The translations under genes were made by a program, and so were the position numbers. From NCBI GenBank assembly GCA_015063785.1, contig SVTM01000019.1, positions 1 through 51,250 of the forward strand: 51,250 bases of DNA. The letters are read 5' to 3'. Positions 8,411 through 48,671 of the stretch are shown here, piece after piece. Positions within the stretch are counted from its first letter, which is position 1, and every line of letters begins with the position of its first letter. Under the pieces are notes generated by a model that saw nothing but the letters and a program-made list of their open reading frames with translations, was not told the DNA's origin and made no database searches. The stretch comes from Oscillospiraceae bacterium (GTDB lineage: Bacteria > Bacillota > Clostridia > Oscillospirales > CAG-382).

Positions 8411-8629
8411 ATGTATTTTGAAAGACTTAAAACTCTGCGCAAGGAAATTAAAATGTCCCAAAGCGACATCGGCGAATTCCTTGGCATAATGCAAACCGTT
8501 TATTCGCGTTACGAGCGCGGTGCAGGAACCATCCCGATCGAGCATCTTTTGAAGCTTGCCGATCTTTACAACGTTTCGACAGACTATATGCTCGGCAGAA
8601 CAAACCTGCGCAACTATGACGAAAAATAA
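8411..8629 (+). CDS. XRE-family helix-turn-helix regulator
   Basis: This 72-residue protein is almost entirely an HTH_3 domain. It starts FERLKTLRKEIKMSQSDIGE, with recognition helix YSRYERGAGTIPIE, and ends NVSTDYMLGRTN, the usual tail of this group. It probably binds DNA as a dimer without a ligand domain. It is 15 bases after the ABC ATPase and ahead of a strong terminator, so it is the last gene of the amino-acid transport operon and may regulate it. The ribosome binding site is weak, suggesting low expression or coupling. Confidence 0.88.
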   Translation: MYFERLKTLRKEIKMSQSDIGEFLGIMQTVYSRYERGAGTIPIEHLLKLADLYNVSTDYMLGRTNLRNYDEK

Positions 8630-8630
8630 C

Positions 8631-8676
8631 AACAAAGAAGACGGCAAAACGTTTTGCCGTCTTCTTTGTTTTTTGC
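8631..8676 (+). terminator. Strong terminator after XRE gene
   Basis: A perfect 20+20 base inverted repeat (AACAAAGAAGACGGCAAAAC and its complement, 8631-8670) followed by TTTT. It ends the amino-acid transport operon. Confidence 0.92.
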
Positions 8677-8705
8677 TTGTATCTCCTGTTTTTGTTCTCT
8701 TTCGG

Positions 8706-8734
8706 TTGACAACGCAGCTCTTGTGTGATATAAT
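8706..8734 (+). promoter_or_regulatory. Sigma-A promoter of GH28-like gene
   Basis: TTGACA (8706-8711), 17 bases, TATAAT (8729-8734). The start site would be near 8741, about 34 bases before the ATG. Confidence 0.88.
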
Positions 8735-8774
8735 ACGTAAAGCTTGTAATTCTTTGTGTTTTCAGGAGACTGAC

Positions 8775-20934: not shown

Positions 20935-21714
20935 TTATCCGCGAGAAAATTCTGTGGGAGATACGCCCGTCACCTTTTTAAAAGCTTTGCTGAAATGATA
21001 TATGTTTCGGTATCCCACGCATTCTGCCACCTCGCCCACAGAGCCGTAGTCGTTTTTCAAAAGCTCCCGCGCTTTGCCTATGCGTACTGATTCAATGTAT
21101 TTTGCCACGGGCATTTTGTATATCTCGCAAAAAAGCTTTCTGAAATAGGGAATGCTGATACCTGAAAGTCGAGAAAGGAATTCTGTGTCTATATCGGGAT
21201 CTTCAAGATGCTCTTCGATATATCTGATTGACGGTTTTATGATCTCGTATTTCGAACTGTTGACGTATCCGCCATTCCGGTTTACGTTTGAAAGGATATT
21301 GAAGATGTAAGACATGCATTTGTTGCGGTATCCTTGTTTTTTGTAGGTCCAAAAGCGCTCTGCTTTTTCGGCACAGGCAAGAATGTCGGCAGAGTTTCTT
21401 ATGGGAAAAGAGGTTATTTCGTCAAAAGGGATGCAGTCTCCGAAATCAAGCTCAAAAAGTATACAGTCGCCGCTTTCCACCACGGTGTAGAAATAGCTCG
21501 AACCCTTTGGCAAAAAAACCAAATGTGACGGATCGGACAAAACGCTTGCTCTGCCGTCCTGGCGGTAGATTGTTTTGCCTGCGGTTTTGTATGCAAAAGC
21601 GCTGCTGTCGCGGCACTTGTTGGATGCCACAGTACCTTCTTTTATTCTCGTTTTTACCACAGACAGAATATCATATATTCTGATGTCTGATATTTTGTCG
21701 TTCACGTCATACAC
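20935..21714 (-). CDS. AraC-family transcriptional regulator
   Basis: This 259-residue regulator has an N-terminal cupin-like ligand domain (about 30-120, with VFLPKGSSYFYTVVESGDC) and a C-terminal double helix-turn-helix (about 160-259). The latter shows LSRLSGISIPYFRKLF and VGEVAECVGYRNIYHFSKAFKKVTGVSPTEF. It is transcribed divergently from the dehydroquinase-like operon at 21871, its most likely target. Its own promoter faces that of the operon. AAGGGG before the ATG is an adequate ribosome binding site. Confidence 0.94.
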   Translation of the reverse strand: MYDVNDKISDIRIYDILSVVKTRIKEGTVASNKCRDSSAFAYKTAGKTIYRQDGRASVLSDPSHLVFLPKGSSYFYTVVESGDCILFELDFGDCIPFDEITSFPIRNSADILACAEKAERFWTYKKQGYRNKCMSYIFNILSNVNRNGGYVNSSKYEIIKPSIRYIEEHLEDPDIDTEFLSRLSGISIPYFRKLFCEIYKMPVAKYIESVRIGKARELLKNDYGSVGEVAECVGYRNIYHFSKAFKKVTGVSPTEFSRG

Positions 21715-21870: not shown

Positions 21871-22707
21871 ATGAGACCTTCTTTTGCATACGGACCGTCC
21901 CCCATGATTGTGGGGGTAATAAAGCAACGAACTGTACGAGACGCGATTGCCGAAATAAAAAACGGCGAAACGCGAGGAGCACGCGGGTTCGATCTTCACC
22001 TTGCTACCCTTGACGAAGAGTTTCGCAACGTCGAATCTATAAAGCAGATAGTTGATGCCACCGACAAACCGATTCTTGCCCTTCATTACAACAACGGATA
22101 TTTCGGCGACCTTGGTATGAACGAGGAAGAAAGAACCGCCCTTCTTATGGCGGCGGTCGATGCGGGAGTTTCTGCCGTTGATCTTCAATGCTATACCTTT
22201 GATACAGAGGCGAAGGCGGGCTTTGTAGATTTTGATCACATTCCCGAAGGACTCGAATTTCTCTCGCAAAAAAAGCCGAGAGAAGTGGCTCTTAAACCCG
22301 AAATAATCGAAAAACAAAGAAAATTCATCGACGAGGTACACGCAAAAGGGGCAGAAGTGCTTATTTCAATGCACTTTGGTGTGCATCTTTCTTTTGAAGA
22401 ATTAAAAGCTCTTGCAACCTTCGCCCACGACGTCAAGGGCGCCGACATCGTCAAAATGGTAACACCCTGCGAAAACGAAGAACAACTTGCCGAATGTATT
22501 TCGTCCACCATCCTGCTGAAAAGAGATCTGGCTTTTCCGTTCAGCTATCACGCCAACGGAAAAATGGGCGTCAAATCCAGAAAGATATGCCCGATGCTCG
22601 GCTCGCACATTATGTTTTGCAACGTTGATTACGGCTATTGTTCCGATCCCGAGCAGCTGCATCTTGAATCAATGACAGAAGCTTATCGCCGTATGGGAGA
22701 ACAGTGA
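21871..22707 (+). CDS. Type I 3-dehydroquinate-dehydratase-fold protein, probably not shikimate AroD
   Basis: This 278-residue protein follows the type I dehydroquinase plan along its whole length. The catalytic pair is kept: His168 in VLISMHFG and Lys195 in ADIVKM, the Schiff-base lysine. The GxxSR loop also matches (GVKSR, ending at Arg237). The substrate-binding positions differ: the usual ELRLD reads FDLHLA, and the TxR strand reads LHYN without arginine. Type I enzymes dehydrate a beta-hydroxyketone through an imine; this one should do similar elimination on another keto compound. It is first in an operon with two MDR enzymes and a Gfo/Idh dehydrogenase. AAAGGAG lies six bases before the ATG. 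Confidence 0.82.
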   Translation: MRPSFAYGPSPMIVGVIKQRTVRDAIAEIKNGETRGARGFDLHLATLDEEFRNVESIKQIVDATDKPILALHYNNGYFGDLGMNEEERTALLMAAVDAGVSAVDLQCYTFDTEAKAGFVDFDHIPEGLEFLSQKKPREVALKPEIIEKQRKFIDEVHAKGAEVLISMHFGVHLSFEELKALATFAHDVKGADIVKMVTPCENEEQLAECISSTILLKRDLAFPFSYHANGKMGVKSRKICPMLGSHIMFCNVDYGYCSDPEQLHLESMTEAYRRMGEQ

Positions 22708-22715
22708 GGTACAAA

Positions 22716-23720
22716 ATGAAAAGAAAAGCAATATTGTTTACAAAACCATCCGTCGCAGAGTTTTGCGAAGTTGATCTTCCCGAGGTCGCCGATGATCTCG
22801 TCCTTGTAAAAACCGAGTTTTCCGCCATTAGCGGAGGTACAGAAAAAGCAAATCTTCTGGGACTTCCCAACACCCCCGCGGGATTTCCCCGATGGCTTGG
22901 TTACAGCAGCTGCGGTAGAGTGGTAAAGGTCGGAGAAAAAGTAACAAGGTTCAAAGAAGGGGACAGGGTGCTCGTTTACCACGGACATCACACAAACTAC
23001 AATCTTCATCACGAGCAGGAAATATTTCACGTTCCTTATGATAACATATCGTCGCTTGACTGCTCGTTTGTTCTTATCGCTGCCATGGGACTTGGCGGTT
23101 TGCGCAAAACCCGTATAGAGCTTGGCGAGAGCGGAATGGTTTTCGGTATGGGCATACTTGGTGTATTTGCCCTCAATTTTATGAAACTTTCGGGTGCTCT
23201 TCCGGTTATCGCTGCCGATCTTTCCGAAAAAAGACGTGCACTTGCCCTTGAAAACGGTGCTGATTTTGCTCTTGATCCCACGTCTGCAGATTTTGTCGAT
23301 CAGGTAAAACGTATAACCGATGGCACGGGTGTAAATGCCATAGTCGAAGTGACCGGAAGCTCCAAAGCCATGCGTGATGCCCTTTCTTGCGCCTCAAAGC
23401 AGGCACGCATAGCTCTTCTCGGTTGTACCCGTGTTTCCGATTGCTCGGTTGATTATTATACCCAGGTGCATTGCCCCGGCGTTCAGCTTATCGGTGCGCA
23501 CAATTTTGTAAGGCCAAAAGTCGATTCCTATCCCTATCACTGGACAAATCTCGATGACTGCAACGCCATTATGAAAATGATGAGCACGGGAAGAATAGAT
23601 TGCAAAAAGATAATAACAGAAGTGGCTTCTCCCGTCGATGCCACGAAAGTATATGACAGACTCATAAACGATCCGGATTTTCCCACAGGCATCGCCTTTG
23701 ACTGGAGGAACATCGAATGA
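22716..23720 (+). CDS. MDR-superfamily alcohol dehydrogenase-like oxidoreductase
   Basis: This 334-residue medium-chain reductase opens MKRKAILFTKPSVAEF, has the early motif SAISGGTEKANL, and carries a Rossmann fold with GMGILGVFALNFMKLSG and AADLSEKRRALALENGADF. The GHE motif that binds catalytic zinc is replaced by LGYSSCGRV, so it belongs to the bi-domain/BchC-like group rather than classical zinc ADHs. ATG 22716 is chosen (GAGG six bases upstream) over GTG 22704, which overlaps the previous stop. It follows the dehydroquinase-like gene directly and shares ATGA with the next gene. Confidence 0.88.
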   Translation: MKRKAILFTKPSVAEFCEVDLPEVADDLVLVKTEFSAISGGTEKANLLGLPNTPAGFPRWLGYSSCGRVVKVGEKVTRFKEGDRVLVYHGHHTNYNLHHEQEIFHVPYDNISSLDCSFVLIAAMGLGGLRKTRIELGESGMVFGMGILGVFALNFMKLSGALPVIAADLSEKRRALALENGADFALDPTSADFVDQVKRITDGTGVNAIVEVTGSSKAMRDALSCASKQARIALLGCTRVSDCSVDYYTQVHCPGVQLIGAHNFVRPKVDSYPYHWTNLDDCNAIMKMMSTGRIDCKKIITEVASPVDATKVYDRLINDPDFPTGIAFDWRNIE

Positions 23721-24733
23721 AAAAGCTCCGTATCGCCCAAATCGGCATCGGGCACAACCACGGCGCGGCAAAAATGCTTGCCTGCAGAAAGTTTCCCGAG
23801 ATCTATGACGTTGTCGGATTTGCCGAAAGCGACGAAGCATGGGTGAAAAGACGCGGAAATGACGATGCGTACAAGGGACTTATACGATATTCCGAACAAG
23901 AAATACTGTCAATGTCGGATCTCGATGCCATACTTGTGGAAACCGATGTATGGAATCTTGATAAAACTGCAAAAAAATGCCTTGATCACGGTTTTCATGT
24001 TCACATGGACAAGCCTGCAGGTGAAGATCTCGGCGAATACTCCAATCTTCTTTCTGTTGCAAAAGAAAAAGGACTTGTGGTTCAGCTCGGATATATGTAC
24101 CGTCAGAATCCTGCGGTGAAAAAAGCGCTGGAAATAATAAACAACGGTGCCTTGGGTGACATCATATCGATCGACGCTGTAATGAACACAGACCACCCTA
24201 CGGAATACCGCAAGTGGCTGGAAAATTTTAAGGGCGGCACGATGTATATCTTCGGATGCCATCTTATTGACGTGATCTTTTCTGTCATGGGAAAACCAAA
24301 AAAGGTTACGCCATATCTTAAAAAGACGGGTTTTGACGGTAACAGTTCTTTCGACAACGATCTTGCGGTGCTCGAATATCCTTTCGGTTTTTCTACTGTC
24401 AAAACAAGCTCTGTAGAGGTTAACGGCTACGGCAGAAGACAGATCGTAATAAACGGTACCAAAGGAACCATCGAGATAAAACCCATCGAAAGACCTACAA
24501 GAATGTATCTTTCTCTGCGTGAAAAATGCCAAAGCGCTTATCTTGATTGTCGCGAGGAGATAATCGTACGCGATCTTTGCGGAGAAGAACGCTATGACGA
24601 AATGATGCTTGATTTTGCTGCTTTTATCCGCGGCGAAAAGGAAAATCCGTACACCTATGAATACGAACTGGAACTGCAAAAGCTGGTTCTTGCGGCAAGC
24701 GGCGTAAAATTTGACCCTGATAAGGAGATATAA
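23717..24733 (+). CDS. Gfo/Idh/MocA-family oxidoreductase
   Basis: This 338-residue enzyme has an N-terminal NAD(P)-binding region (IAQIGIGHNHG), the DKPAGEDL motif near 98-105 that closes the nucleotide domain, and a C-terminal sheet domain. The putative catalytic His lies in FGCHLIDVIF. Members oxidise sugar hydroxyls to ketones, often at C3. The GHNHG form of the loop is typical of a subgroup found in carbohydrate operons. ATGA overlap with the MDR gene upstream and a three-base gap to the next MDR gene indicate one operon. Confidence 0.92.
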   Translation: MKKLRIAQIGIGHNHGAAKMLACRKFPEIYDVVGFAESDEAWVKRRGNDDAYKGLIRYSEQEILSMSDLDAILVETDVWNLDKTAKKCLDHGFHVHMDKPAGEDLGEYSNLLSVAKEKGLVVQLGYMYRQNPAVKKALEIINNGALGDIISIDAVMNTDHPTEYRKWLENFKGGTMYIFGCHLIDVIFSVMGKPKKVTPYLKKTGFDGNSSFDNDLAVLEYPFGFSTVKTSSVEVNGYGRRQIVINGTKGTIEIKPIERPTRMYLSLREKCQSAYLDCREEIIVRDLCGEERYDEMMLDFAAFIRGEKENPYTYEYELELQKLVLAASGVKFDPDKEI

Positions 24734-24736
24734 ACT

Positions 24737-25720
24737 ATGAAAGCAATGCTTGTAAAAGAAAACGAAAAGCTCGAATGGTGCGAGGTTGATGACCCCATAA
24801 TTTCCGACGATGAAGCGTTGGTCGAAGTATATGCCGTCGGCGTAAACCGTGCAGACATTCTTCAAAGACAAGGAAAATATCCTTCTCCTGCAGGTTGCCC
24901 TCCTTGGATGGGACTTGAAATTTCGGGTGTGATAAAAGAACTCGGAAAGGTTGCCTGTGAGAAATCGGATCTCAAGGTGGGTGACAGAGTGTGTGCTCTG
25001 CTTGGCGGAGGAGGCTATGCCCAGTACGTTGCGGTGAAATACGATATGATGATAAAGCTTCCCGATAATCTTTCGTTCGAGCACGCCGCCGCCATTCCCG
25101 AAGCTTTTGCCACCTCGTATCTCAACCTTTTCATAGAGGCTCACCTTGAAGAGGGGGACACGGTGTATATTTCGGCAGGTGCCAGCGGTCTTTCCACCGC
25201 CATGATACCGCTTGCAAAAACTTTTGGTGCAACGGTTGTTACTTCGATAATCGACGAGTCAAAAAGAGAACACGTTCGCTCACTCGGCGCGGATATCATC
25301 GTCAATACACAAGAAGATTCCTTGCCCGAGAAGTTCAAAGAGCTTGAAGAAAACGGTACCCCCGTTAAGATTGCGGTCGATTGCCTTTCGGGTAAAACTC
25401 TTGGCGAATGTATGCCCTATATGGCACGTGGCGGATATTGGGTCGTCATTTCTACCCTTGCAGGTATCGAAACGAATATCCTTTTGCGTCCGCTTTTGAC
25501 AAAAGGGCTGCATCTTGTGGGAAGTATGCTTCGCAACCGCACACCTGAAATGAAAGCACAGATTCTTTCCGAGCTTTCGCAAAAGGTGTTTCCAAAGATA
25601 GCCCGAGGCGAGATGGTGCCTTTTGTATGCAAAACTCTGCCCATCGAGCAGGCTCTTTCGGGACACAAACTCCTTGAGGATGGAAAAAGCGTCGGTAAGG
25701 TGGTCCTTACGGTAAAATAA
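24737..25720 (+). CDS. Quinone-oxidoreductase-like MDR enzyme
   Basis: This 327-residue zinc-independent MDR protein of the QOR/PIG3 type shows VGVNRADILQRQGKYPSPAG, MGLEISGVI and the nucleotide-binding segment VYISAGASGLSTAMIPLAK. Such enzymes use NADPH to reduce enones and quinones at the C=C bond. In this operon an enone is what a dehydroquinase-type elimination would generate, so a reducing role on that product is a reasonable inference. AAGGAG before the ATG. No terminator is visible before the GH106 promoter 20 bases on. Confidence 0.9.
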   Translation: MKAMLVKENEKLEWCEVDDPIISDDEALVEVYAVGVNRADILQRQGKYPSPAGCPPWMGLEISGVIKELGKVACEKSDLKVGDRVCALLGGGGYAQYVAVKYDMMIKLPDNLSFEHAAAIPEAFATSYLNLFIEAHLEEGDTVYISAGASGLSTAMIPLAKTFGATVVTSIIDESKREHVRSLGADIIVNTQEDSLPEKFKELEENGTPVKIAVDCLSGKTLGECMPYMARGGYWVVISTLAGIETNILLRPLLTKGLHLVGSMLRNRTPEMKAQILSELSQKVFPKIARGEMVPFVCKTLPIEQALSGHKLLEDGKSVGKVVLTVK

Positions 25721-25819: not shown

Positions 25820-28570
25820 ATGGATTTCAAAAACGTACCGAAAAAGTACCGCCCCGTGCCGTTCTGGTCATGGAACGAAAAGCTTGATACTGCAGAGACT
25901 GTTCGTCAGGTCGAAGAAATGGAAAAGGCAGGTATCGGCGGCTTCTTCATGCACGCAAGAGGCGGTCTTCAGACAGAATATATGGGCGAAGAATGGTTTG
26001 AAAACATTGAGGCCTGTGCACAAAAATGTGCCGAAAACGGAATGCACGCATGGGCATATGACGAAAACGGCTGGCCTTCGGGTTTTGGCGGAGGTGTTGT
26101 CAACGGCCTTGGTGTAGAATACCAGCAGAAATATCTTCGCATCGCCAAGGATGACGGCAAGCATCGCGAAAACGCTATTGCAACATTCGACGGATACGTC
26201 TTTTATTACGACATCAACCCTTACTACGTCGACACCCTTGACGGAAAAGTAATAAAAGAGTTTATCGAAAGGATATACGTTCCTTATTACGAAAAGTTTG
26301 CAGGTCGCATCGACGGATTTTTCACCGACGAACCGCAGATATCACGAAACGGCATTCCATGGAGTTTTATTCTTCCCGAAGAATACAAAAAAGCTTACGG
26401 TGAGGAGCTTATTCCACATCTTCCCGAGCTTTTCCTCGACGTTTGCGACTACAAGAAGACACGAGTAAAGTTCTGGAAGCTTATCACAGATCTTTTCTCT
26501 GAAAACTTTATGAAGCAGATATACGACTGGTGTATATCCCACGGCTTTGGCTTTACAGGTCACCTGGTGCTTGAAGAAAACTTCCTTTGTCAGATTGTTT
26601 CCAACGGCGCATGTATGCCCCACTATGAATACATGACCATCCCCGGCATGGACTGGCTGGGGCGTCACAACAACAGAAGCCTCACTCCTTATCAGGTGGG
26701 TTCTGTTGCCCGTCAGCTCGGCATGAAGCAGGTGCTTTCCGAAACCTTTGCTATGTGCGGACACAATGTGGGACACGACGAGCTTAAGTGGATATATGAA
26801 TATCAGATGGTACGCGGCATAAATCTTCTGTGCCAGCACCTCGAAGGCTATTCAAACAGAGGCTTGCGCAAACGCGACTATCCGCCTGCAATGTACATTC
26901 AGCAGCCCTGGTGGAAAGATTACAAAATGTTCAACGATGCCATGAGCCGCATCGGCATGCTTCTCACCAAAGGTGACGACGGTGTTGACGTTCTTGTTAT
27001 CCACCCCATGACCACAGCCTGGACTATGTATAACGACAATGCCCCCAAGCATATGAACGAAGCAAAAAAGGACTGCTTCAACGAGATCAATGCATATTCG
27101 GGGGAATTTCTCGATATGCTTCTTGCTCTCGAGCGCAAGCACGTCAATTTCCATCTCGGTGACGAAACTATGATGGAACGCCACGGCAGGGTAGAGGGTT
27201 CGAGTCTCTTTATAGGCAACAAGAAGTATTCAAAGATAATCATTCCCCGTCACGAGATATTCTTTGACAACACCGAAAAACTCCTCAGCGAATACAAAGC
27301 AAACGGCGGTGTTATCACCACCGTTGAAGATATTGCCGAAAACAACGTCATCGACGTTCCCGAAATAACCTACTGTGCAAGATACTGCGACGATTACGAT
27401 ATGTATTATTTCGTCAACAGTACCGAGGGTTCGTATGATGCCAATATCACTGTGGGAACCAAGATTATGGATCCCGTAACCGGCGAGCTTTGTCCCTTCG
27501 ACGGCAAGCATACCTTCAAAAAGTACGCTTCTCTCGTCGTTATTGACGACCGCACCGAAAGAAGTTGCGCCATTGAAAGAAAGCCTGCATCTCCCATCGA
27601 CCTTTCGGGCAAATGGAAGATCGAAAAGGTTACCGAAAACGTGATAACCCTTGACTATTGCGATTATTATTTTGACGGCAAGCTCGTCGAGAAAAATGGA
27701 TATATTCTCAACGCCATGTACCGCGCCATTGATCTCGGAAAACCCGTCAGCATTACTTGTGAATACGGTTTCGAAACAGAATACATCCCCGATTCGCTCT
27801 ATCTTGTCTGCGAAACTCCCGAAAATCTTGATATCAAAGTAAACGGTGTTTCCATCGACAAGACCGACTGCGGCTTTTTTGCCGACCGCGCGTTCAGAAA
27901 ACTTGATATTGCAAAATACACCAAGCTTGGCAGTAACAGCATTGTTGTAAATGTTGATTTCACCCAGTCCGAGCAAGTTTATCGCAACCTCGAAAAGAGC
28001 AAGCTTTTCGAATCCGAGAAAAATAAGCTCACCTTCGATATCGAGATAGAGCAGATGTACCTTGTGGGAGATTTTTCGGTCAAGACCGAAGGAAAATTCG
28101 AAGATCTCAACAAAAACGCCTGCAGATATAGTGGAAAGTTCGTTATTGCAAAGCCTGTGGGTTCGATCGCGCTTACAAACATCGAAAGACAGGGCTTCCC
28201 GTTCTTTGCAGGTGACATCACCGTGTCCAAAAAGTTTGAAAAGAACGGCAATATGATGCTCGACTTTGTAAAATGCGGCATCAACGTAGTTAAGGCAAAA
28301 ATAAACGGAAAGGAAATTCCGCAGTTCATGTGGGAGCCTTATACTGCAGACGTCAGCGACCTTCTTTGTGACGGAGAAAACGAGATCACTCTCACCCTTG
28401 TCAATAATCTTCGCAACATGCAGGGACCGCTTCATCTAACCGAGGGCGAAAGCTACAGCGTGGGCCCCGGTTCGTTCTATAAGGAAGACTGCCTGTGGGT
28501 GCGCGGTATTACGCCTGACAGATGGAACGACGATTATTGCTTTGTAAACACTACCATTAAGAACAGATGA
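25820..28570 (+). CDS. GH106-like glycoside hydrolase (alpha-L-rhamnosidase type)
   Basis: This 916-residue protein opens MDFKNVPKKYRPVPFWSWNE, then MEKAGIGGFFMHARGGLQTEYMG, the characteristic start of the GH106/rhamnosidase-like group. An alpha/beta barrel (1-450) is followed by beta-sandwich domains, including a carbohydrate-binding-like C-terminus (WEPYTADVSDLLCDGENEITLTLV). GH106 enzymes remove alpha-L-rhamnose from pectic or flavonoid glycosides by inversion. There is no signal peptide, so substrates are imported or the enzyme works on small glycosides. GGAGG lies eight bases before ATG 25820; the upstream ATG would precede transcription. The G1PDH-like gene follows. Confidence 0.86.
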   Translation: MDFKNVPKKYRPVPFWSWNEKLDTAETVRQVEEMEKAGIGGFFMHARGGLQTEYMGEEWFENIEACAQKCAENGMHAWAYDENGWPSGFGGGVVNGLGVEYQQKYLRIAKDDGKHRENAIATFDGYVFYYDINPYYVDTLDGKVIKEFIERIYVPYYEKFAGRIDGFFTDEPQISRNGIPWSFILPEEYKKAYGEELIPHLPELFLDVCDYKKTRVKFWKLITDLFSENFMKQIYDWCISHGFGFTGHLVLEENFLCQIVSNGACMPHYEYMTIPGMDWLGRHNNRSLTPYQVGSVARQLGMKQVLSETFAMCGHNVGHDELKWIYEYQMVRGINLLCQHLEGYSNRGLRKRDYPPAMYIQQPWWKDYKMFNDAMSRIGMLLTKGDDGVDVLVIHPMTTAWTMYNDNAPKHMNEAKKDCFNEINAYSGEFLDMLLALERKHVNFHLGDETMMERHGRVEGSSLFIGNKKYSKIIIPRHEIFFDNTEKLLSEYKANGGVITTVEDIAENNVIDVPEITYCARYCDDYDMYYFVNSTEGSYDANITVGTKIMDPVTGELCPFDGKHTFKKYASLVVIDDRTERSCAIERKPASPIDLSGKWKIEKVTENVITLDYCDYYFDGKLVEKNGYILNAMYRAIDLGKPVSITCEYGFETEYIPDSLYLVCETPENLDIKVNGVSIDKTDCGFFADRAFRKLDIAKYTKLGSNSIVVNVDFTQSEQVYRNLEKSKLFESEKNKLTFDIEIEQMYLVGDFSVKTEGKFEDLNKNACRYSGKFVIAKPVGSIALTNIERQGFPFFAGDITVSKKFEKNGNMMLDFVKCGINVVKAKINGKEIPQFMWEPYTADVSDLLCDGENEITLTLVNNLRNMQGPLHLTEGESYSVGPGSFYKEDCLWVRGITPDRWNDDYCFVNTTIKNR

Positions 28571-28583
28571 TATGGAGTATTCG

Positions 28584-29888
28584 ATGAACACTATAAAAGA
28601 AGGTGTGCTTTGCGAATGTGGCAAAGTCCACCCCGAAAGCCGAGTCGGCTTTTCGATAAAAAGGGGAGCAATATGCGATCTGCCGAAACTGTGCGCGGAT
28701 TTTGAATGTAAAAAAGCCTTTGTCGTTGCAGACGAAAACACTTTTGCCGCCGCAGGCAAAAAGGTGTGCTCGGTTTTTGATGAAAACAGCGTGGCATATA
28801 CAAAGTATATTTTCCCGTCGGAAAAACTCGAACCAAACGAAAACTCAGTCGGATCAGTCATTATGCATTTTGATGACAAGTGTGATATAATTGTTGGCGT
28901 TGGATCGGGGGTTATAAACGACATCTGCAAGATCGTCTCGCGTGTTACGGCAAGAAAATATATAATCGTCGCCACAGCTCCCTCCATGGACGGATATGCC
29001 TCTGCAAGCTCGTCGGTTATCCGTGCAGGACTAAAAATTTCGCTTAACAGCAGGTGCCCCGATTATATTGTCGGCGATCTTGACGTTTTATGCAATGCTC
29101 CGAAAAAAATGCTCGCCGCAGGACTTGGTGATATGCTGGCAAAATACGTCAGCATTTGCGAATGGCGTATTTCAAATCTTATCAACGGCGAATACTATTG
29201 CGAAAAGGTCGCATCTCTTGTGCGAAAAGCAGTGCAGGACTGCGTAGCCGATCCGGTGGGGCTTATGAACCGCGATGAGACTGCCGTCAAGGCGGTGTTC
29301 TACGGACTTGTGGTGGGTGGCATTTCGATGTATTATGCCGGTGCTTCGCGGCCTGCCTCAGGAGTCGAGCACTATTTCTCCCACGTGTGGGATATGCGCG
29401 CCGAAGAATTCGGAACCCCCTGCGAGCTCCACGGAATCCAATGCGCCATTGGCACTCTTATGGCGCTAAAGCTCTATGAAAAAATAAAAAAGATCACTCC
29501 CGACCGCGAAAAAGCAAAAAGATTCGTCGAAGCTTTCAGCTATGACGAATGGAAAAATGTTCTTTCGAGCTATCTCGGAAAAGCCGCCGACGCCATGATT
29601 GCCCTTGAGAAAAAAGAGGGAAAATACGACGTGCAAAAACATTCGGCAAGACTCGATGTAATCATTGAAAACTGGACTAAAATTTTGGATATAATTGATG
29701 AGGAACTTCCCGGTGCAGAGTATATCGAAAAGCTTCTTGACATCATTGACTGTCCAAAGCGTGCTTCCGAAATAGGTATCAACGAAAAAGACAACCCCGT
29801 CACTTTTGCCGCAACAAAAGATATACGCGACAAATACGTTCTTTCGCGTCTTGCGTGGGATCTCGGCGTAATTGATGAAATAATGTAA
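28584..29888 (+). CDS. sn-glycerol-1-phosphate dehydrogenase-like enzyme (EgsA/AraM type)
   Basis: This 434-residue enzyme belongs to the iron-containing-dehydrogenase-fold group that reduces dihydroxyacetone phosphate to glycerol-1-phosphate. Motifs are GVGSGVINDICK (nucleotide), TAPSMDGYAS, and metal ligands Asp183 (GLGDML), His263 (GVEHYFSH) and His283 (ELHGIQ). AraM of B. subtilis lies in an arabinose operon and makes the archaeal-type enantiomer of glycerol phosphate. ATG 28584 is used (GGAG six bases upstream) rather than 28572. The C-terminus is about 40 residues longer than the core. It is coupled to the GH106 gene, and a terminator follows. The real substrate could be another ketose phosphate. 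Confidence 0.87.
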   Translation: MNTIKEGVLCECGKVHPESRVGFSIKRGAICDLPKLCADFECKKAFVVADENTFAAAGKKVCSVFDENSVAYTKYIFPSEKLEPNENSVGSVIMHFDDKCDIIVGVGSGVINDICKIVSRVTARKYIIVATAPSMDGYASASSSVIRAGLKISLNSRCPDYIVGDLDVLCNAPKKMLAAGLGDMLAKYVSICEWRISNLINGEYYCEKVASLVRKAVQDCVADPVGLMNRDETAVKAVFYGLVVGGISMYYAGASRPASGVEHYFSHVWDMRAEEFGTPCELHGIQCAIGTLMALKLYEKIKKITPDREKAKRFVEAFSYDEWKNVLSSYLGKAADAMIALEKKEGKYDVQKHSARLDVIIENWTKILDIIDEELPGAEYIEKLLDIIDCPKRASEIGINEKDNPVTFAATKDIRDKYVLSRLAWDLGVIDEIM

Positions 29889-29927: not shown

Positions 29928-31745
29928 TTAAAATACTTCAAAGTTGAAAATGTGCGCTGTGGAACAGCCGTAATCCTCTGTTTTTCTTTCGCTGTGGTAG
30001 GTCGAGAGGGGGATAAGGCGTATGGCTTTTACCGATTTTTCGATTTTGTGTTTGACAAAGCGTTGGTGGTTGTCAGAAATCTCAAGAACGGTACTCCATT
30101 TACTGTCATCTCCCAACACCTCGATCTTGTATGACTTCACCAGGCATTTCGGAAAACCAAAGGTGGTGTTGTTGTAGCTTTTGGGGAAGAAAAGAGTGGA
30201 TGACGTGTGCAGAGCGTCGGGATTTCCGTCGGTGTATTCACGGTCAAGATCGCTGTCAAAAACAATTCTTACTCCCGAAACGAATTCGGCCTTTTCAAAG
30301 GTATAAGTGATAGCCTTGTTTGTCTTTCCGAAATATCCGTTGTCGTTACCCCAAATACGTCGGTCAATGCCGTTCAGAAGCGCCGAAGGGTCGCCGTAAT
30401 CTGCTGAAAGAACGGCTTTTTTTGTAAGATGTGACGGTTCTCTTCGAAGTCCGGGAAGAAAACAGTCGTCATCAAGCAGCATTTTTTGTATTTCTCGGAT
30501 TTTGATCTTTGCGGCATCACGTGGGGACAACCCGTATTTTACTGCAACTGCCGCCGCGGTTCCTGCCGCCTGCCCGATAACCCCTATGGTTCCCATAACA
30601 CGTGTCGAACTGAAAGCAACGTGAGATGCGCTGATGTTTCGGCCTGCAAACATAAGATTTTTAATGTTTTTGGAATAAAGACAGCGCAACGGGATGGGAT
30701 ATGGTTCCGAAAGTCTTCGCTTTTGAAGATGAGCTCCGCTCTTGGCATCCATATAAAATCCGCCGGGCAGATGATTGTCGATCTGCCATCCGCCGTATGC
30801 AACGGTGTCGTCAAATCTTGTGCAATTTTCTACGTCGTGTTGAGTCAGAACGTAATCGCCTACATATCTTCTGCTTTCACGCTTTCCGGGCAAAAATCCC
30901 ACCCATTCAAGCTCCCAGTTTTCTGCACCATGATCGCCGTGGTTTTTCATGTGGTCCCAGACTCCGAAGGCTATCTTCAAAAGCTCGTCTCGCACCTCTT
31001 CCGTGTCGTCAATGCTGTTCTGCATACCGCCAAGTTCTATCCAGTAAAAATTTGTATTTATGGCATAGATATTGTGGGGTTTGTTTTTCATGGCGTCGTC
31101 ATCGGAAAAATCATACGCCCATGATGGGGGAGTGTAAGACACAGGATGATCTGTTTCGCGGCACTGCAGAAGTATGCTCATGCCCATGGTGTGCTTGTCG
31201 GCACTGTCAAGCCCAAACTCTTCGTTATATTCGCTTTTTGCTTCTCTGCCCACCTTGTATTCGGCACCTGTAAGGGGTGCAAGAATACTGTCCCCCGAGC
31301 TGTCGACAAATATCCCTGCTTCCACTTCGTGCCAGGTGTACGTTGTAAGCTGAAAACCTTTTACTGTTTTTATCTCTCCGTTTTCGGTTTTTGCATCGTT
31401 ACAGGTACAGTTGAGGATCAGATCTATGTTTGGCTCAAAACGCACCATTTCGTAAAGCAGAGCATCCCATATGCTGTAATTTCTTTTGGGATTGCGGTGC
31501 ATGTTTTCGAGCTGAAGCTCCTCCATTATTCCCGTTTCCTGAAGATCGCGTACACGGGTCCCGGCGCCTGATATCCACATTCTGATCTCGCTGCTGGCGT
31601 TGCCGCCAAGCACGGGTCTGTCGTGCATCAGCGCAACTTTTGCCCCGTGTCTTGCGGCAGAAATTGCTGTAAACATTCCGCCTATTCCTCCGCCGATAAC
31701 ACAAATGTCGACTGAATGATGCTTTGTTTTCAAAAGTTCTGTCAT
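29928..31745 (-). CDS. FAD-dependent oxidoreductase with C-terminal discoidin-like region
   Basis: This 605-residue flavoenzyme is of the FAD_oxidored type. The dinucleotide fold is VIGGGIGGMFTAISAARHGA, then LGGNASSEIRMWISGAG; a second flavin segment is FVDSSGDSILAPLTGAEY; LMFAGRNISASHVAFSSTR and GTIGVIGQAAGTAAA come near residue 400. Residues about 460-605 look like a beta-sandwich domain (VSGVRIVFDSDLD, VLEISDNHQRFV, AIRLIPLSTY), as in F5/8-type-C carbohydrate-binding domains. Enzymes of this family occur in glycan operons and may oxidise a sugar hydroxyl. It follows the GDPD gene with ATGA overlap. AGGAGATATGCT precedes the ATG. Confidence 0.88.
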   Translation of the reverse strand: MTELLKTKHHSVDICVIGGGIGGMFTAISAARHGAKVALMHDRPVLGGNASSEIRMWISGAGTRVRDLQETGIMEELQLENMHRNPKRNYSIWDALLYEMVRFEPNIDLILNCTCNDAKTENGEIKTVKGFQLTTYTWHEVEAGIFVDSSGDSILAPLTGAEYKVGREAKSEYNEEFGLDSADKHTMGMSILLQCRETDHPVSYTPPSWAYDFSDDDAMKNKPHNIYAINTNFYWIELGGMQNSIDDTEEVRDELLKIAFGVWDHMKNHGDHGAENWELEWVGFLPGKRESRRYVGDYVLTQHDVENCTRFDDTVAYGGWQIDNHLPGGFYMDAKSGAHLQKRRLSEPYPIPLRCLYSKNIKNLMFAGRNISASHVAFSSTRVMGTIGVIGQAAGTAAAVAVKYGLSPRDAAKIKIREIQKMLLDDDCFLPGLRREPSHLTKKAVLSADYGDPSALLNGIDRRIWGNDNGYFGKTNKAITYTFEKAEFVSGVRIVFDSDLDREYTDGNPDALHTSSTLFFPKSYNNTTFGFPKCLVKSYKIEVLGDDSKWSTVLEISDNHQRFVKHKIEKSVKAIRLIPLSTYHSERKTEDYGCSTAHIFNFEVF

Positions 31746-32482
31746 AGCATATCTCCTGATATTGTTTCGTGCATACAGTTTGTCGGGAAATAGTCAAGTC
31801 CCAACTTTTTCATTTGTTCAAGGTTTTTGACGCTGTCTGCGGCACGCAGACAAACTTTAAGATCCATTCCGTGTGCAAGATCAACAGATACTTTGTCGCA
31901 TTCAAAAGGGTCCGAAACACACCACGAAAGTCCGGCGTTTCCAAGAGCCGAAAGACAAGACAGCCTGCTTTTGTCTGCGAATATCCAATGTATAAACATA
32001 TTTTTCGAAACACGCCTTGTTTCGCCAAGCCGTGAAAGCTCTGTGGAGCTCATAACCACCGCATCGTCATCAAACCCGCATTTGCGAAGGTTGTATATCA
32101 CGTATTCTGCATCGTCGGTTTTCAGCTCGATAAATGGTATACTGCCGTGTTTTTTGCAGATACCAAGGTATTCGGAAAAGATCGGGAGTCTTCTTTCTTC
32201 GGCTGTAAAACAGTTTACTCTGTTTCCGTGTATAATTTCCAGCCCTCTCAGCTCTTTCAATGTCATGTCCGAAATTTTGCCCGTACTGTTGCAGTATTGA
32301 TCTATGCTTTCGTTGTGACAGCAAATGATTCCGCCGTCTTTTGTGATATGTACGTCGGTTTCAATGGCCCATTGGCCCAATATGCCTGCATAAGCAAATG
32401 ACGGAAGAGAGTTTTCCGGAGCCAAAGGCATAAAGCCGCGATGGCTGATAAAGCGAGTTTTCGGAATATCAAAAATTTTCAT
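31742..32482 (-). CDS. Glycerophosphodiester phosphodiesterase (GDPD)
   Basis: This 246-residue protein has the GDPD barrel with its catalytic residues. His14-Arg15 (ISHRG) and Glu24-Asn25 (PENSLPSF) come first. Glu41 and Asp43 (ETDVHITKDG) with His56 (CCHNES) follow, and then the FIELK strand. It cleaves glycerophosphodiesters to glycerol-phosphate and an alcohol, in the cytoplasm because there is no signal peptide. It heads the unit GDPD-FAD oxidoreductase, with the next gene overlapping by four bases. AAGGAGG before the ATG. The AraC gene at 32601 lies divergently next to it and is a likely regulator. Confidence 0.92.
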   Translation of the reverse strand: MKIFDIPKTRFISHRGFMPLAPENSLPSFAYAGILGQWAIETDVHITKDGGIICCHNESIDQYCNSTGKISDMTLKELRGLEIIHGNRVNCFTAEERRLPIFSEYLGICKKHGSIPFIELKTDDAEYVIYNLRKCGFDDDAVVMSSTELSRLGETRRVSKNMFIHWIFADKSRLSCLSALGNAGLSWCVSDPFECDKVSVDLAHGMDLKVCLRAADSVKNLEQMKKLGLDYFPTNCMHETISGDML

Positions 32483-32494
32483 ATCGTTACCTCC

Positions 32495-32522
32495 TTGACA
32501 ATCTTTGTTCTTTTGTTATAAT
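32495..32522 (+). promoter_or_regulatory. Sigma-A promoter of AraC gene
   Basis: TTGACA (32495-32500), 16 bases, TATAAT (32517-32522). The -35 lies next to the GDPD ribosome binding site on the other strand. Confidence 0.72.
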
Positions 32523-32528
32523 AACTAT

Positions 32529-32557
32529 ATATCACGCAAAATGAAAAGTCTATTCAA
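32529..32557 (-). promoter_or_regulatory. Promoter of GDPD-FAD oxidoreductase unit
   Basis: TTGAAT (32557-32552), 17 bases, TGATAT (32534-32529) on the minus strand. The match is weak, as expected for an activator-dependent promoter. Confidence 0.5.
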
Positions 32558-32560
32558 AAT

Positions 32561-32581
32561 ATGCGTCATAATCGTCATTTT
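32561..32581. promoter_or_regulatory. Direct CGTCAT repeats, candidate AraC binding site
   Basis: Two CGTCAT copies 10 bases apart (ATGCGTCATA, ATCGTCATTT) lie just upstream of the minus-strand -35 and before the AraC start. One helical turn between direct repeats is the usual AraC half-site geometry. Confidence 0.5.
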
Positions 32582-32600
32582 GTGACATATAGGAGGAAGA

Positions 32601-33509
32601 ATGAAGCTTTTTTCTCATTACATTGAAAATCAGCCAAAGCAAGGCTTTGAAATACGGAACTGGCAGGATCGCCTCGTTGGTGAATATTTCTGCTATTCCT
32701 ACCGAGACACTTTATACGACCGAAGCACTTTTCCGTGCCGTCTTCATTCTCACGATTACTACGAGTTGGTTGTTTTCGAGGAGGGCGAGGTGCACTATTT
32801 GTGCGATGGAAATGTTTTTTATCCCACGCGTGCGGATATGATGATCGTGCCACCCGGCAAAATCCACGTTACTGTTCCCGACAGCGAAAAAACAAATTAC
32901 AAAAGGCATGTGTTCTATTTTTATCCATCAGCTTTTGATTTTATTAGAAGTGCCTGCCTTTTGTCTTTTGTTTCAGATATAAACGAGGGAAAACTATTGT
33001 CGTTTCAAGATCAGGGGTTGAAGGAAGAACTTTGCGGATTGCTTGAAGACCTAAAGGCTTTAAGCAACAAAAACAACGGCGTTTTTGACGGTGCGTTGTG
33101 CTTGTCGTATGTGATTCAGGCTTTTTGCCTGCTGAACAACAAAAGCTGTAAACCCAACGAAGAAACGGCACATCTTCCGGAAAATCTTCTTAATATCCAG
33201 CGTTATATTGATACAAATATTTCGCGCATAACCTCCGTTTCCGATATTGCGTCGCATTTCTTTTACAGCAGGGAATACGTGTCAAGACTTTTTAAAAAAC
33301 ACTTCGACACTACCATCGCCGATTACATTACAAAAAGACGAGTGGCAGAAAGCAGGGTACTTATATTACAAGGAATGCCGATGATCGAAGTAGCTTACGG
33401 CGTGGGATTCGGTTCGCTTTCCACATTCATACGTGCTTTTCGCGCCGAAACAAATATGACGCCGTCGGAATACCGAAAATTGCGCAGAGCAAACGAAATT
33501 ACAAAATAA
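32601..33509 (+). CDS. AraC-family transcriptional regulator
   Basis: This 302-residue regulator has an N-terminal cupin sensor (about 40-110). Its RLHSHDYYELVVFEEGEVHY and MMIVPPGKIHV segments are typical of sugar-responsive AraC proteins. The C-terminal double HTH (about 205-300) contains ISRITSVSDIASHFFYSREY, VSRLFKKHFDTTIADYI, and MPMIEVAYGVGFGSLSTFIR. It is divergent from the GDPD-FAD oxidoreductase unit. AGGAGGAAG precedes the ATG. It ends the carbohydrate island and is followed by its own terminator. Confidence 0.94.
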   Translation: MKLFSHYIENQPKQGFEIRNWQDRLVGEYFCYSYRDTLYDRSTFPCRLHSHDYYELVVFEEGEVHYLCDGNVFYPTRADMMIVPPGKIHVTVPDSEKTNYKRHVFYFYPSAFDFIRSACLLSFVSDINEGKLLSFQDQGLKEELCGLLEDLKALSNKNNGVFDGALCLSYVIQAFCLLNNKSCKPNEETAHLPENLLNIQRYIDTNISRITSVSDIASHFFYSREYVSRLFKKHFDTTIADYITKRRVAESRVLILQGMPMIEVAYGVGFGSLSTFIRAFRAETNMTPSEYRKLRRANEITK

Positions 33510-33635: not shown

Positions 33636-33728
33636 TGGCGGAGAAGGGGAGATTTGAACTCCCGCGCCGGTAAACCCGACCTACACCCTTAGCAGGGGCG
33701 CCTCTTCGGCCAACTTGAGTACTTCTCC
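33636..33728 (-). tRNA. tRNA-Ser (anticodon GCU)
   Basis: A class II tRNA on the minus strand. The acceptor GGAGAAG pairs with CTTCTCC, discriminator G is followed by encoded CCA, the anticodon loop is CTGCTAA, a long variable arm is present, and the T-arm reads GGGAGTTCAAATCTCCC. It decodes AGC/AGU. Confidence 0.97.
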
Positions 33729-33756
33729 GAATATCTTTTTCTTTATTTAAAATGCC

Positions 33757-33845
33757 TGGCGGAGAGGAAGGGATTCGAACCCTTGTGCCCTCGCGGACAA
33801 ACGGTTTTCAAGACCGCCTCGTTATGACCACTTCGATACCTCTCC
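33757..33845 (-). tRNA. tRNA-Ser (anticodon UGA)
   Basis: A class II tRNA on the minus strand. The acceptor is GGAGAGG/CCTCTCC with encoded CCA, the anticodon loop is CTTGAAA, and a long variable arm and T-arm AAGGGTTCGAATCCCTT are present. It decodes UCN codons and is promoter-proximal to the second tRNA-Ser, 28 bases away. Confidence 0.97.
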
Positions 33846-35547: not shown

Positions 35548-35613
35548 AAATAGGATATAAGAAGTACTGTGTTCAACAGAAAACAAACAATTTTTCACGG
35601 AGGATCTTCGAAA

Positions 35614-38232
35614 ATGAAAATGAAAAGGATTTTAGGTGCATTTCTTGCTCTTGCAATGATGATACCTGTTGTGTTGACAGGATGTAAGAGCGACGATTCT
35701 GAAACCACGGATACATCCAGCATCCGCCAGAATATCGTTCTCAATATGTACATTCTCACAGACGAAAAGACAGACCTCGAGCAGGCTCAGGCTGTTGAAA
35801 TCGCACTTAACGAAATTTTGCTTCCCGATTACAGAACCGTTGTTAAAATCAACTACATCCACGACGACGGCGGAGATAACCTCGAATATTGGAATGCTAT
35901 AAATGAAGCCGAAGATGCGGCTATCGAATATCAGCTTGAGCTTGAAGCAAAGAGAGAAGCTGAAAAGGCAGCAAAGAAAGAAAAGAACAAGGCCGGCGCT
36001 ACAACCACAACCGACGCCGATGCCACAGCAGATACAACCACAGCTACAGGTTCTGAAGCTCTCACAGGCGAAGAACTTGAAGCTGCTGAAGAAAAGAACG
36101 AAAGCGAATACGACAGACTCGCAAAGATGATCTTCGGCTACGAAAGAAACAAGGTTGACGAAAACGGCAACCCTGTTAAGGACGAGGACGGCAACCCCAT
36201 CGTTGAAAAGGTTAAGCCCGAGATCGTTCTCACCGATCCCCAGATCGATATATTCCTTGTAAACAGTGCTTCCAAGTATGTTGAACTTGCTGAAAGCGGA
36301 CGCCTCACAAAGCTCGACGATTACCTTAAGAGCGAGGCAAAGCTCATCACTTCCAACGTTTATCCCACATTCGTAACCGGCGCAACCAGCGTTGCAAACG
36401 GACTTTACGGTATCCCTGTAAATAAGGCTATTGGTGAATACGAATATCTCGTATTCAACAAGGAGCTCCTTGATAAGTACGGCGTAAATGCAGACGACCT
36501 CAAAACCATCGATGCTCTTTCCGGTTATCTTGCAACAATCGCTGCAAACGAGCCCGGTGTTGTTCCGCTTGCACTCAGTGATGGAGGAGTATCTCCCCAG
36601 TTCTATGAGTACTATCAGGAAGAGGGTGGGGCTCTCGGTGCAAAATACAACGTTTACGGCGTATTTGCAAACTCTCCCTTTGGTGAAAACGCAGACGAAG
36701 TTGTAAAGACACACTTTGCAAAGATCCGCGAATATAAGCTTGCAGGTTATATTCCCGATACATATGTAGAAGGTACACCTTTCGCTGTTGACGTACGCAA
36801 AGGTTTTGCCGATGATCCTGCTAAGTGGGCAGAAGAAGACGGAACAGAATACGTATGCCAGATCTATAAGAGACCTGTTGCAACCACCGAAAACACACTC
36901 GACTCTGTTTTCGTTGTAAGCTCTGCTTCCAGAAACCCTGCAAGAGCAGCAGAAATCATTACTCTCTTCAACACAAACTCTGAACTTGCAAATCTGCTTC
37001 AGTTTGGTATCGAAGAAGAACATTACTACAGAGTAACCGAGGATTCCGGAGAAAAGAAGATCAGCGTCAAGTCCAACGGCGGCTACTTCATGAACAACGA
37101 TTACACCGGTCACCATTATATCAAGGACGTTGTTGTTGGCGAAACCGACAGAACAGAAGCTTTCAAACAGCAGAATCTCGATTCTCTGCTCAGTATGTTC
37201 TATGGCTTTGATGCAAACACTCTCATCGAAGAAGAGATCCTTCTCGAAAAGGCAAACAACATCACAAAGCAGTACTACGAAGGTCTTTGCCGCGGTCAGT
37301 ACGATGTTGAAACCGTTTATGCAACAGTAAACGCTCAGCTCGCAGCCCTTACAGTATCCGAAAGCGAGATCGCTGCTTGGGTTGGCGACGATGCAGTTCG
37401 TTCAGAAAGAGCAAAGGGCGAAGGATATTCCAAGCAGGCAGAAAACGCTGCCGAAACTGCTGAAAAGGCAGCAAAAGAAGCTGAAAAGGCAGCAAAAGAA
37501 GCTGAAAAGGCTCTTAAGAGTGCAACAAGAGCAGAGATCAGTAAGATCATCGCAGGCGTTGTAAATGACGATACAAGTGCTGCAACCATCGCAGAAGCAG
37601 ATGCAACTATCAGCAGCTCGCTCGTAGTTATCCAGGCGGCAGCAGCAAAGGCAGAATCTGCAGCGGCAGAAGCAAAGACCGCAGCTGAAACCGCAAAGAA
37701 GGTTGCTGAAGACGCAGAACTCTTTGTTGAAGAATCTCAGTATGCAGATACAGTTGCCGCAAGCGCTGCAACATCTTCCAAGAATGACGCGGACGCAGCA
37801 AACAAGGCACAGGTTACAGCTACAAAGGCTGCAAACGACGCCAAGAGAGCCAACGAAAACGTGCAGATGATCGCCACCGGCAATAGAATCGTAACTGCAG
37901 CGGCTGATGTTTCTGCAAAGAATGCATATGCAGCTCTCAGCTTCGGCGGCTCGACTGTATATGCAACATCTCTTCCTGCAGAATCTCCCGAGGAAGAAGA
38001 AAACGTTGAAGAAGACTTAAGAGCAGACGACGGCGAAGTTCGCACACCTTACGACGAATTCGTATTCGACTTCGACGCTGATCTTTACGAATACACAGAA
38101 GCCAATACAAAGCTTAAGTCTCTCTGGTCTCTCACATATAAGTACTTCAATCCTGCAAACGGCAACGAAGAATATGTGGACGATACAGAAGATCCTCTCA
38201 AGGTTATCATCCGTGACGAGGAAGAAAAGTGA
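35614..38232 (+). CDS. Large extracellular solute-binding-like lipoprotein with alanine-rich helical insert
   Basis: This 872-residue lipoprotein has a signal peptide ending in lipobox VLTGC (Cys24). The SBP_bac-like core includes NIVLNMYILTDEK, GLYGIPVNKAIGEYEYLVFNKELLDKYG and DSVFVVSSASRNPARAAEIITLF. Two features stand out: an E/K/A/T-rich insert (about 105-165) and a long Ala/Glu/Lys helix region (about 605-760) with tandem EAEKAAK units, likely a coiled coil. The end is acidic. Family receptors are usually 430-550 residues. No permease or ATPase gene is nearby, so it is an orphan receptor or a surface protein using the fold. ATG 35614 has GGAGG ten bases upstream. A strong terminator follows. 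Confidence 0.85.
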   Translation: MKMKRILGAFLALAMMIPVVLTGCKSDDSETTDTSSIRQNIVLNMYILTDEKTDLEQAQAVEIALNEILLPDYRTVVKINYIHDDGGDNLEYWNAINEAEDAAIEYQLELEAKREAEKAAKKEKNKAGATTTTDADATADTTTATGSEALTGEELEAAEEKNESEYDRLAKMIFGYERNKVDENGNPVKDEDGNPIVEKVKPEIVLTDPQIDIFLVNSASKYVELAESGRLTKLDDYLKSEAKLITSNVYPTFVTGATSVANGLYGIPVNKAIGEYEYLVFNKELLDKYGVNADDLKTIDALSGYLATIAANEPGVVPLALSDGGVSPQFYEYYQEEGGALGAKYNVYGVFANSPFGENADEVVKTHFAKIREYKLAGYIPDTYVEGTPFAVDVRKGFADDPAKWAEEDGTEYVCQIYKRPVATTENTLDSVFVVSSASRNPARAAEIITLFNTNSELANLLQFGIEEEHYYRVTEDSGEKKISVKSNGGYFMNNDYTGHHYIKDVVVGETDRTEAFKQQNLDSLLSMFYGFDANTLIEEEILLEKANNITKQYYEGLCRGQYDVETVYATVNAQLAALTVSESEIAAWVGDDAVRSERAKGEGYSKQAENAAETAEKAAKEAEKAAKEAEKALKSATRAEISKIIAGVVNDDTSAATIAEADATISSSLVVIQAAAAKAESAAAEAKTAAETAKKVAEDAELFVEESQYADTVAASAATSSKNDADAANKAQVTATKAANDAKRANENVQMIATGNRIVTAAADVSAKNAYAALSFGGSTVYATSLPAESPEEEENVEEDLRADDGEVRTPYDEFVFDFDADLYEYTEANTKLKSLWSLTYKYFNPANGNEEYVDDTEDPLKVIIRDEEEK
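37462..37508 (+). repeat. Tandem repeat encoding EKAAKEA units
   Basis: The 21-base unit GCTGAAAAGGCAGCAAAAGA plus A is repeated twice in tandem with a third, partial copy, inside the lipoprotein gene. It encodes heptad-like helical repeats. Confidence 0.75.
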
Positions 38233-48657: not shown

Positions 48658-48671
48658 AACGGGAAGTTAAA

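Follow-up and report, generated by a model that had tools for sequence, protein, structure and literature searches.

What reaction is catalysed by a protein that resembles type I dehydroquinase, to our knowledge a one-reaction enzyme, when its gene heads an operon of oxidoreductases? This question is raised by a locus in a 51,250-nucleotide stretch of contig SVTM01000019.1 (assembly GCA_015063785.1) from an Oscillospiraceae bacterium, the whole of which we call the window. Here a gene for a type I dehydroquinase-fold lyase is followed by genes for a medium-chain dehydrogenase/reductase (MDR) oxidoreductase (MDR1), a Gfo/Idh/MocA oxidoreductase (Gfo/Idh), and a PIG3-type NAD(P)H quinone oxidoreductase-like MDR (QOR). 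An earlier note on this DNA had described these four open reading frames (ORFs), all of which we find where it placed them, and had read them as a possible pathway acting on a glycoside or inositol. We propose instead, with a probability of about one half, that the lyase would dehydrate, through a Schiff base, a carboxylated β-hydroxyketone supplied by the operon dehydrogenases, and that QOR would then reduce the resulting C=C bond.

The lyase and its active site

By profile, the window lyase is a member of the PF01487 superfamily with a predicted (β/α)8 fold, and profile alignment of its family with 31 canonical sequences gave a probability of 99.3%. When 293 genomes of the class were searched for PF01487, 52 had matches, which scored either 163.8–275.6 bits, the range of canonical dehydroquinases, or 59.8 bits or less, with a gap between the two sets. 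The window lyase falls in the lower set (55.7 bits) and, at 31.1 bits, stays below the NCBIfam aroD cut-off of 139.3 bits. In a tree obtained by a quick search, with SH-aLRT as its only support measure and identical or close rows removed, a branch with 100% support separates 137 family representatives from 23 canonical enzymes. The window lyase belongs to a sister clade of the type I dehydroquinases and does not lie among AroD enzymes. Identity as an ordinary AroD was considered and rejected on the grounds of the aroD cut-off, the tree placement, and the replacement of residues E46, R48, and R82 (E. coli AroD numbering). Few members of the lyase family are named in databases, and 3 of 71 proteins are labelled dehydroquinate dehydratase; where it is named, the family therefore passes as a shikimate enzyme.

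We aligned 176 family members (171 distinct, near-copies included) jointly with 29 canonical enzymes, leaving out short rows (235 residues or less for sequences from loci and 240 or less for database proteins). The alignment agrees with the earlier claim that the window lyase keeps the catalytic His168 and Schiff-base Lys195 and has lost the Glu and Arg that bind the substrate: H143 and K170 of E. coli AroD correspond to H168 and K195, and R213, Q236, D114, and E116 are retained as R237, Q262, D104, and E138, whereas E46, R48, and R82 on the diol side are replaced by D41, H43, and N74. The counterpart of R82 is N74 in this alignment and Y73 in the profile alignment, the one-residue gap being placeable either way, and E86 has no counterpart in the window lyase in the joint alignment. 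Across the family, H143, K170, D114, and R213 are invariant (176/176, and in all canonical enzymes), E116 is Glu in 171 members, and Q236 is Gln in 164. E46 and R48 are both present in 29/29 canonical enzymes, whereas position 46 is Glu in 0/176 family members (Asp in 115, Gly in 35) and position 48 is Arg in 0/176 (His in 123, Gln in 36). Position 82 is Asn in 84 and Arg in 62 of the 176; Arg is mostly missing in the window's clade, whose lyases also differ from AroD by an insert between positions 114 and 116.

In Salmonella and Staphylococcus dehydroquinase crystal structures (PMC9902378), the ligand carboxylate is held by R213 and Q236, and the C4 and C5 hydroxyls by E46, R48, R82 and, via water, D114. 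As judged from the alignment, the lyase family retains both the catalytic pair and the carboxylate clamp, and the diol side of the pocket is rebuilt. An acid substrate is favoured because the clamp is retained, and dehydroquinate itself is an improbable substrate because the residues that grip its C4/C5 diol are replaced. The same residues bear on whether the operon might contain an ordinary dehydroquinase recruited to quinate catabolism, acting on 3-dehydroquinate itself: the retained His/Lys pair and carboxylate-binding residues would suit such an enzyme, and QOR could reduce dehydroshikimate, an enone, but the absence of E46 and R48 from every family member makes this quite unlikely.

The 106 locus sequences fall into clade A (54 sequences, including the window lyase), with mostly Asp-His at positions 46/48; clade B (33 sequences, including a second copy from the window's genome), with Gly-Gln; and clade C (14 sequences, mostly from Lentisphaerota and kin), with Asp or Glu at position 48; 5 are unassigned. 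A new substrate for a lyase of dehydroquinase fold, as the earlier note had supposed, is supported both by this separate family with its altered diol side and by the genomic context.

Recurrence of the operon in other genomes

To compare gene neighbourhoods, we took as divergent loci all 19 low-scoring PF01487 matches over the cut-off in the 293-genome search, including both from the window's genome and excluding the sub-cut-off match in G160, and as controls 20 of the 37 high-scoring matches. Partners were same-strand genes no more than 8 kb away (E value 1e-6 for the controls), genes in related loci being called with a custom script. QOR genes lie beside 14/19 divergent genes and 0/20 true aroD genes (one-sided Fisher p 8e-7), a comparison tilted towards the divergent set, as these loci also supplied the neighbours from which the partner profiles were made; bit thresholds were set after a first look. 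At least one partner was found at 19/19 divergent loci, of which the L155 pair have partners in common within 8 kb; at the aroD loci QOR, MDR1, and Gfo/Idh were found at 0/20 and a short-chain dehydrogenase/reductase (SDR) at 2/20.

A wider set of 80 database loci (L007–L086, the best 80 of 155) gave QOR at 50, SDR at 48, Gfo/Idh at 43, MDR1 at 34, an extended SDR at 29, and an amidohydrolase at 24 (the window's operon lacks the last two), with at least one of these six enzymes at 71/80 and an AraC-type gene on either strand within 8 kb at 49/80. Where at least 6 kb was available on both sides (36 loci), 34 had at least one partner and 28 had QOR; L029 and L086 had none. The counts use L007–L086 only, gene order suggesting that L155/L020, L147/L008, L138/L010, and L179/L023 are each from the same genome. 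The operon with a divergent dehydroquinase recurs in distant bacteria, beyond chance; it is not confined to the window, and, in contrast to aroD, the divergent lyases occupy their own branch and sit in operons with oxidoreductases. Immediately after the lyase gene, L149 and L152 have another SDR gene, which might encode an SDR-type enone reductase.

Partner trees, from which identical or close rows had been removed and in which each row took the clade of its adjoining lyase as a label, required 2 label changes for MDR1 (36 rows), 3 for Gfo/Idh (49 rows), and 4 for QOR (65 rows), compared with a minimum of 2 for three states and means of 9.6, 16.4, and 27.2 over 200 label shuffles. The partner trees follow the lyase clades, a pattern part of which descent of the genomes could give. 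One genome (G187, locus L155, contig 15) carries two complete, paralogous operons in tandem from 5908 to ~19500, one of clade B and one of clade A, and both have a separate set of MDR1, Gfo/Idh, extended SDR, and QOR, an arrangement that genome descent alone is insufficient to explain. The lyase tree, the class-wide sample, and the partner trees together bear out the earlier expectation of a clade found together with Gfo/Idh and MDR genes.

The window's genome (97.5% complete) has two PF01487 matches, both divergent, and a type II dehydroquinase (AroQ, 196.6 bits) whose gene overlaps by 4 bases that of a 414-residue shikimate dehydrogenase-like protein (identified by eye). Because both PF01487 genes are divergent and the type II gene adjoins an aroE-like gene, the type II enzyme is the simplest candidate for the shikimate dehydroquinase step; a placement of the window lyase among shikimate AroD enzymes as the genome's sole dehydroquinase, which the earlier note had named as fatal to its reading, is not what we find, and neither is the other outcome of this kind that it named, a lack of the cluster in relatives. 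The second divergent lyase (L005:1331-2104, minus strand, clade B) retains Arg82 and has Gly and Gln at the Glu46 and Arg48 positions, and at L005:1331-3862 its gene is accompanied by genes of SDR and QOR type, as well as by a divergently oriented AraC-type regulator. Elsewhere in this genome a second MDR1 homologue lies near the end of contig C17 with only an AraC-type gene adjoining, and two extended SDR homologues (59% and 48% identity), one on a 4.3-kb contig, have no partner gene adjoining in the stretches examined. The amidohydrolase of the related loci has no match in the window's genome, an empty result that carries little weight.

Candidate chemistry and substrate

QOR passes the TIGR02824 cut-off (322.6 vs 296.8 bits) of PIG3/QOR-type enzymes, which reduce enones or quinones, and it is tied to lyase genes: strong QOR matches in the window's genome number just two (725 and 314.5 bits; next 38.6), each beside a lyase gene. 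The best NCBIfam matches of MDR1 are IolM, Tdh, and BchC, all far under cut-off (90.6 vs 450 bits for the scyllo-inosose 3-dehydrogenase IolM, NF041097). At the positions that we take to be those of the usual catalytic-zinc Cys and His, MDR1 lacks these residues and has conserved S43xGTE and GY instead, and because they are absent it may oxidise or reduce. Gfo/Idh likewise remains below the cut-offs for glycoside 3-dehydrogenase (NF058561, 41.3 vs 750 bits), levoglucosan dehydrogenase (NF052479, 35.2 vs 650), and inositol dehydrogenase (TIGR04380, 44 vs 355); its K99-P100 and H182/D185, presumably the catalytic Lys-Pro and His motifs, are conserved across 52 relatives.

Because a dehydroquinase-type elimination yields an enone and needs a ketone first, the likely order would be oxidation, imine dehydration, and enone reduction. 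MDR1 and/or Gfo/Idh (an SDR in relatives) would oxidise a ring hydroxyl β to the leaving group; K195 would then form an imine with the ketone and H168 would abstract the α proton and aid loss of the hydroxyl, while R237 and Q262 would grip a carboxylate on, or near, the carbon losing it. QOR would finally reduce the enone and return the hydrogen taken in the first step, the net result being reductive dehydroxylation of a ring. This keeps the sequence of ketone formation, elimination, and enone reduction suggested by the earlier note, for which the recurring partners and the QOR linkage speak, and departs from it on the neutral sugar as substrate.

As far as fit can be reasoned from the pocket residues, quinate-like acids would suit best, 4-keto ulosonates would offer the same layout, 3-keto uronosides would fit less well, and neutral glycosides or inositols worst. 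The substrate is perhaps a hydroaromatic acid that resembles quinate but differs in stereochemistry or hydroxylation or, as second choice, an ulosonic or uronic acid derivative. Lactobacilli reduce quinate and shikimate to dihydroshikimate, a route that resembles the proposed one in that an enone acid would be formed by loss of water and its C=C bond then reduced; dihydroshikimate is not mentioned among the literature matches listed.

Several observations weigh against the proposed dehydration and reduction of an acid. The catalytic machinery appears not to be preserved whole, since Glu86, which we take to lie near the catalytic histidine and which is mutated in several dehydroquinase crystal structures on record, is Glu in 29/29 canonical enzymes and in only 15/176 family members (with a gap in 41) in a part of the alignment that is loose. 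The conserved Arg213 could bind something other than a carboxylate, and the direction of the redox steps cannot be read from sequence. QOR is missing beside 5/19 divergent loci, one of them at a contig end, and the clade B loci L149, L152, and L178 have SDR-type enzyme partners alone, with no QOR in reach. The family as a whole is unlikely to share one substrate because R82 is kept as Arg in the 62 members noted above, mainly in clades B and C. No quinate-specific genes were noticed in the operons, although no search was aimed at them, and a GH106-like gene beside the lyase gene in the window and L086 keeps a sugar link possible.

Such a link is central to the neutral glycoside or inositol route, in which Gfo/Idh would make a 3-keto sugar, the lyase would eliminate the aglycone or a hydroxyl, and reductases would finish. 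Conserved Gfo/Idh motifs, the GH106-like gene in the probable operon, and GH20 genes beside L025, L032, and L084 are in keeping with it, and the levoglucosan (PMC7676230) and O-glycoside β-eliminase (PMC10628242) pathways are comparable in that Gfo/Idh-type oxidation precedes β-elimination. The operon differs from these in its dehydroquinase-fold lyase, its enone-reductase-type enzyme, and its likely acidic substrate; the title of the levoglucosan report speaks of hydration and names no C=C reduction of an enone (PMC7676230). Above all, the R213/Q236 clamp is retained in 176 and 164 of 176 members, and a neutral sugar or cyclitol is disfavoured because it has no group for these residues, leaving the glycoside or inositol of the earlier note unsupported and this route unlikely. 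A link to GH20 was tried and rejected, as 0/53 GH20 matches in 20 genomes lie within 10 kb of a lyase gene, a count that contig ends in these draft genomes limit. Among 96 hand-chosen proteins of 208 unlabelled same-strand neighbours, for which the 25 commonest of 134 families were viewed, EamA was commonest (5) and GH39 and GH28 had 2 each, so no glycosidase family was frequent in the scanned set (GH20 being at 3/80 loci and GH106-like genes in the window and L086). DUF4838 genes occur near L047 and, by likeness, L019.

A lyase for an acidic sugar, either a 4-keto ulosonate (Kdo, sialic acid) or a 3-keto uronoside with its carboxylate on the carbon losing oxygen, would satisfy the clamp, and by our own reasoning 4-keto ulosonates place carboxylate, CH2, and ketone as dehydroquinate does. 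The amidohydrolase at 24/80 loci could remove an acyl group, and weak matches of Gfo/Idh in the PDB include YjhC (6o15) and 6z3b, the latter presumably the R. gnavus enzyme. YjhC is reported to use anhydro- and dehydro-sialate as substrates, and 2,7-anhydro-Neu5Ac to be converted by R. gnavus (PMC7315737, PMC7535918). We nevertheless regard an acidic sugar as improbable, as this Gfo/Idh likeness is at the superfamily level only, the amidohydrolase match is absent from the window's genome, and no ulosonate aldolase was seen by eye in the 30 largest neighbour clusters or among the 25 commonest families, with part of the neighbours scanned. Cleavage of a C–C bond of the β-hydroxyketone by a Schiff-base aldolase is permitted by Lys/His TIM-barrel chemistry, which allows both reactions, and class II aldolase-like genes lie near the lyase genes of L013 and L037 (by eye); the family, fold, and His/Lys pair are nevertheless those of a dehydroquinase, and the recurring enone-reductase-type gene would be left without a role, making an aldolase very unlikely.

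Returning to dehydration of a carboxylated ketone, a broader and more tentative suggestion, which we consider possible but hold with less than even confidence, is that Clostridia, Lentisphaerota, Planctomycetota, and Verrucomicrobiota share a module of dehydroquinase-derived imine lyases in at least three substrate clades, co-inherited with dehydrogenases and an enone reductase, that would reductively dehydroxylate ring carboxylic acids without aromatisation. The operon apparently represents an undescribed breakdown pathway around an altered known enzyme type; among the papers listed in our literature search, which covered few subscription journals, none appeared to deal with these lyase operons. 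If the reading holds, the divergent clade in its catabolic-looking operons would show clearly how a biosynthetic lyase can be turned to a catabolic role. Clostridia account for 63/80 database loci, and 34 of the 80 record titles mention goat, sheep, cattle, roe deer, water deer, or water buffalo; these origins suggest that the substrate may be some widespread plant compound with a gut fate yet to be described.

Operon layout and the rest of the window

The four core genes share a strand, overlap by 4 bases or stand a few bases apart, and are preceded by sequences like ribosome-binding sites (table 1): the Gfo/Idh gene overlaps the end of MDR1 by 4 bases, and QOR follows after a 3-base gap. The MDR1 ORF is open from 22704, the ATG at 22716 behind GGAG being the likelier start, and the GH106-like ORF is open from 25760, with an ATG at 25820 preceded by GGAGG. 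The operon probably comprises six genes and reaches 29888, because gene order and gaps are preserved in a genome of the same genus (G003), where the AraC, lyase, MDR, Gfo/Idh, QOR, GH106-like, and glycerol-1-phosphate-dehydrogenase-like (G1PDH-like) genes follow in identical order and the ORF gaps before the last two are 39 and 1 bases, as in the window.

Table 1. Genes of the operon and its divergent regulator in the window
Feature	Position	Strand	Profile matches and remarks
AraC-family regulator	20935..21714	-	PF12833 60.1 bits; divergent, 156 bases upstream of lyase gene
Type I dehydroquinase-fold lyase gene	21871..22707	+	Predicted Schiff-base lyase; PF01487 55.7 bits (Pfam)
MDR1, MDR oxidoreductase	22716..23720	+	PF00107 72.8 bits; usual zinc-ligand motif absent; conserved S43xGTE, G66-Y67
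Gfo/Idh/MocA oxidoreductase	23717..24733	+	PF22725 56.8 bits, PF01408 29 bits; K99-P100, H182/D185 conserved
PIG3-type NAD(P)H quinone oxidoreductase-like MDR (QOR)	24737..25720	+	Predicted enone reductase; TIGR02824 322.6 bits
GH106-like protein	25820..28570	+	Probable operon member; PF17132 35 bits, cut-off 29
Iron-ADH/G1PDH-like protein	28572..29888	+	Probable last operon gene; PF13685 100.8 bits; NF002022 181.6 bits, under cut-off 413

Between the operon end and a gene for a 454-residue protein, the window has genes for an FAD-oxidoreductase (PF12831), a phosphodiesterase-like protein, and an AraC-like protein (29928-33509); in G003 (L136) a gene for a 454-residue protein follows 653 bases after the operon, and this block of ~3.5 kb seems variable within the genus. 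Upstream, a polygalacturonase-like gene (GH28-like, by eye against relatives; 8556-10323, plus strand) is split between two ORFs (8556-9635 and 9556-10323) that overlap and differ in frame, either a broken gene or an assembly error. Downstream on the plus strand, 35569-38232 encodes an 887-residue lipoprotein-like, possibly solute-binding protein with an Ala/Glu/Lys-rich, coiled-coil-like stretch in its C-terminal half, and 47182-50123 encodes adjoining proteins of 491 and 483 residues that are apparently related and share a Cys-rich N-terminal motif (all by eye). Adjacent tRNA-Ser genes (GCT and TGA) lie on the minus strand at 33636-33845.

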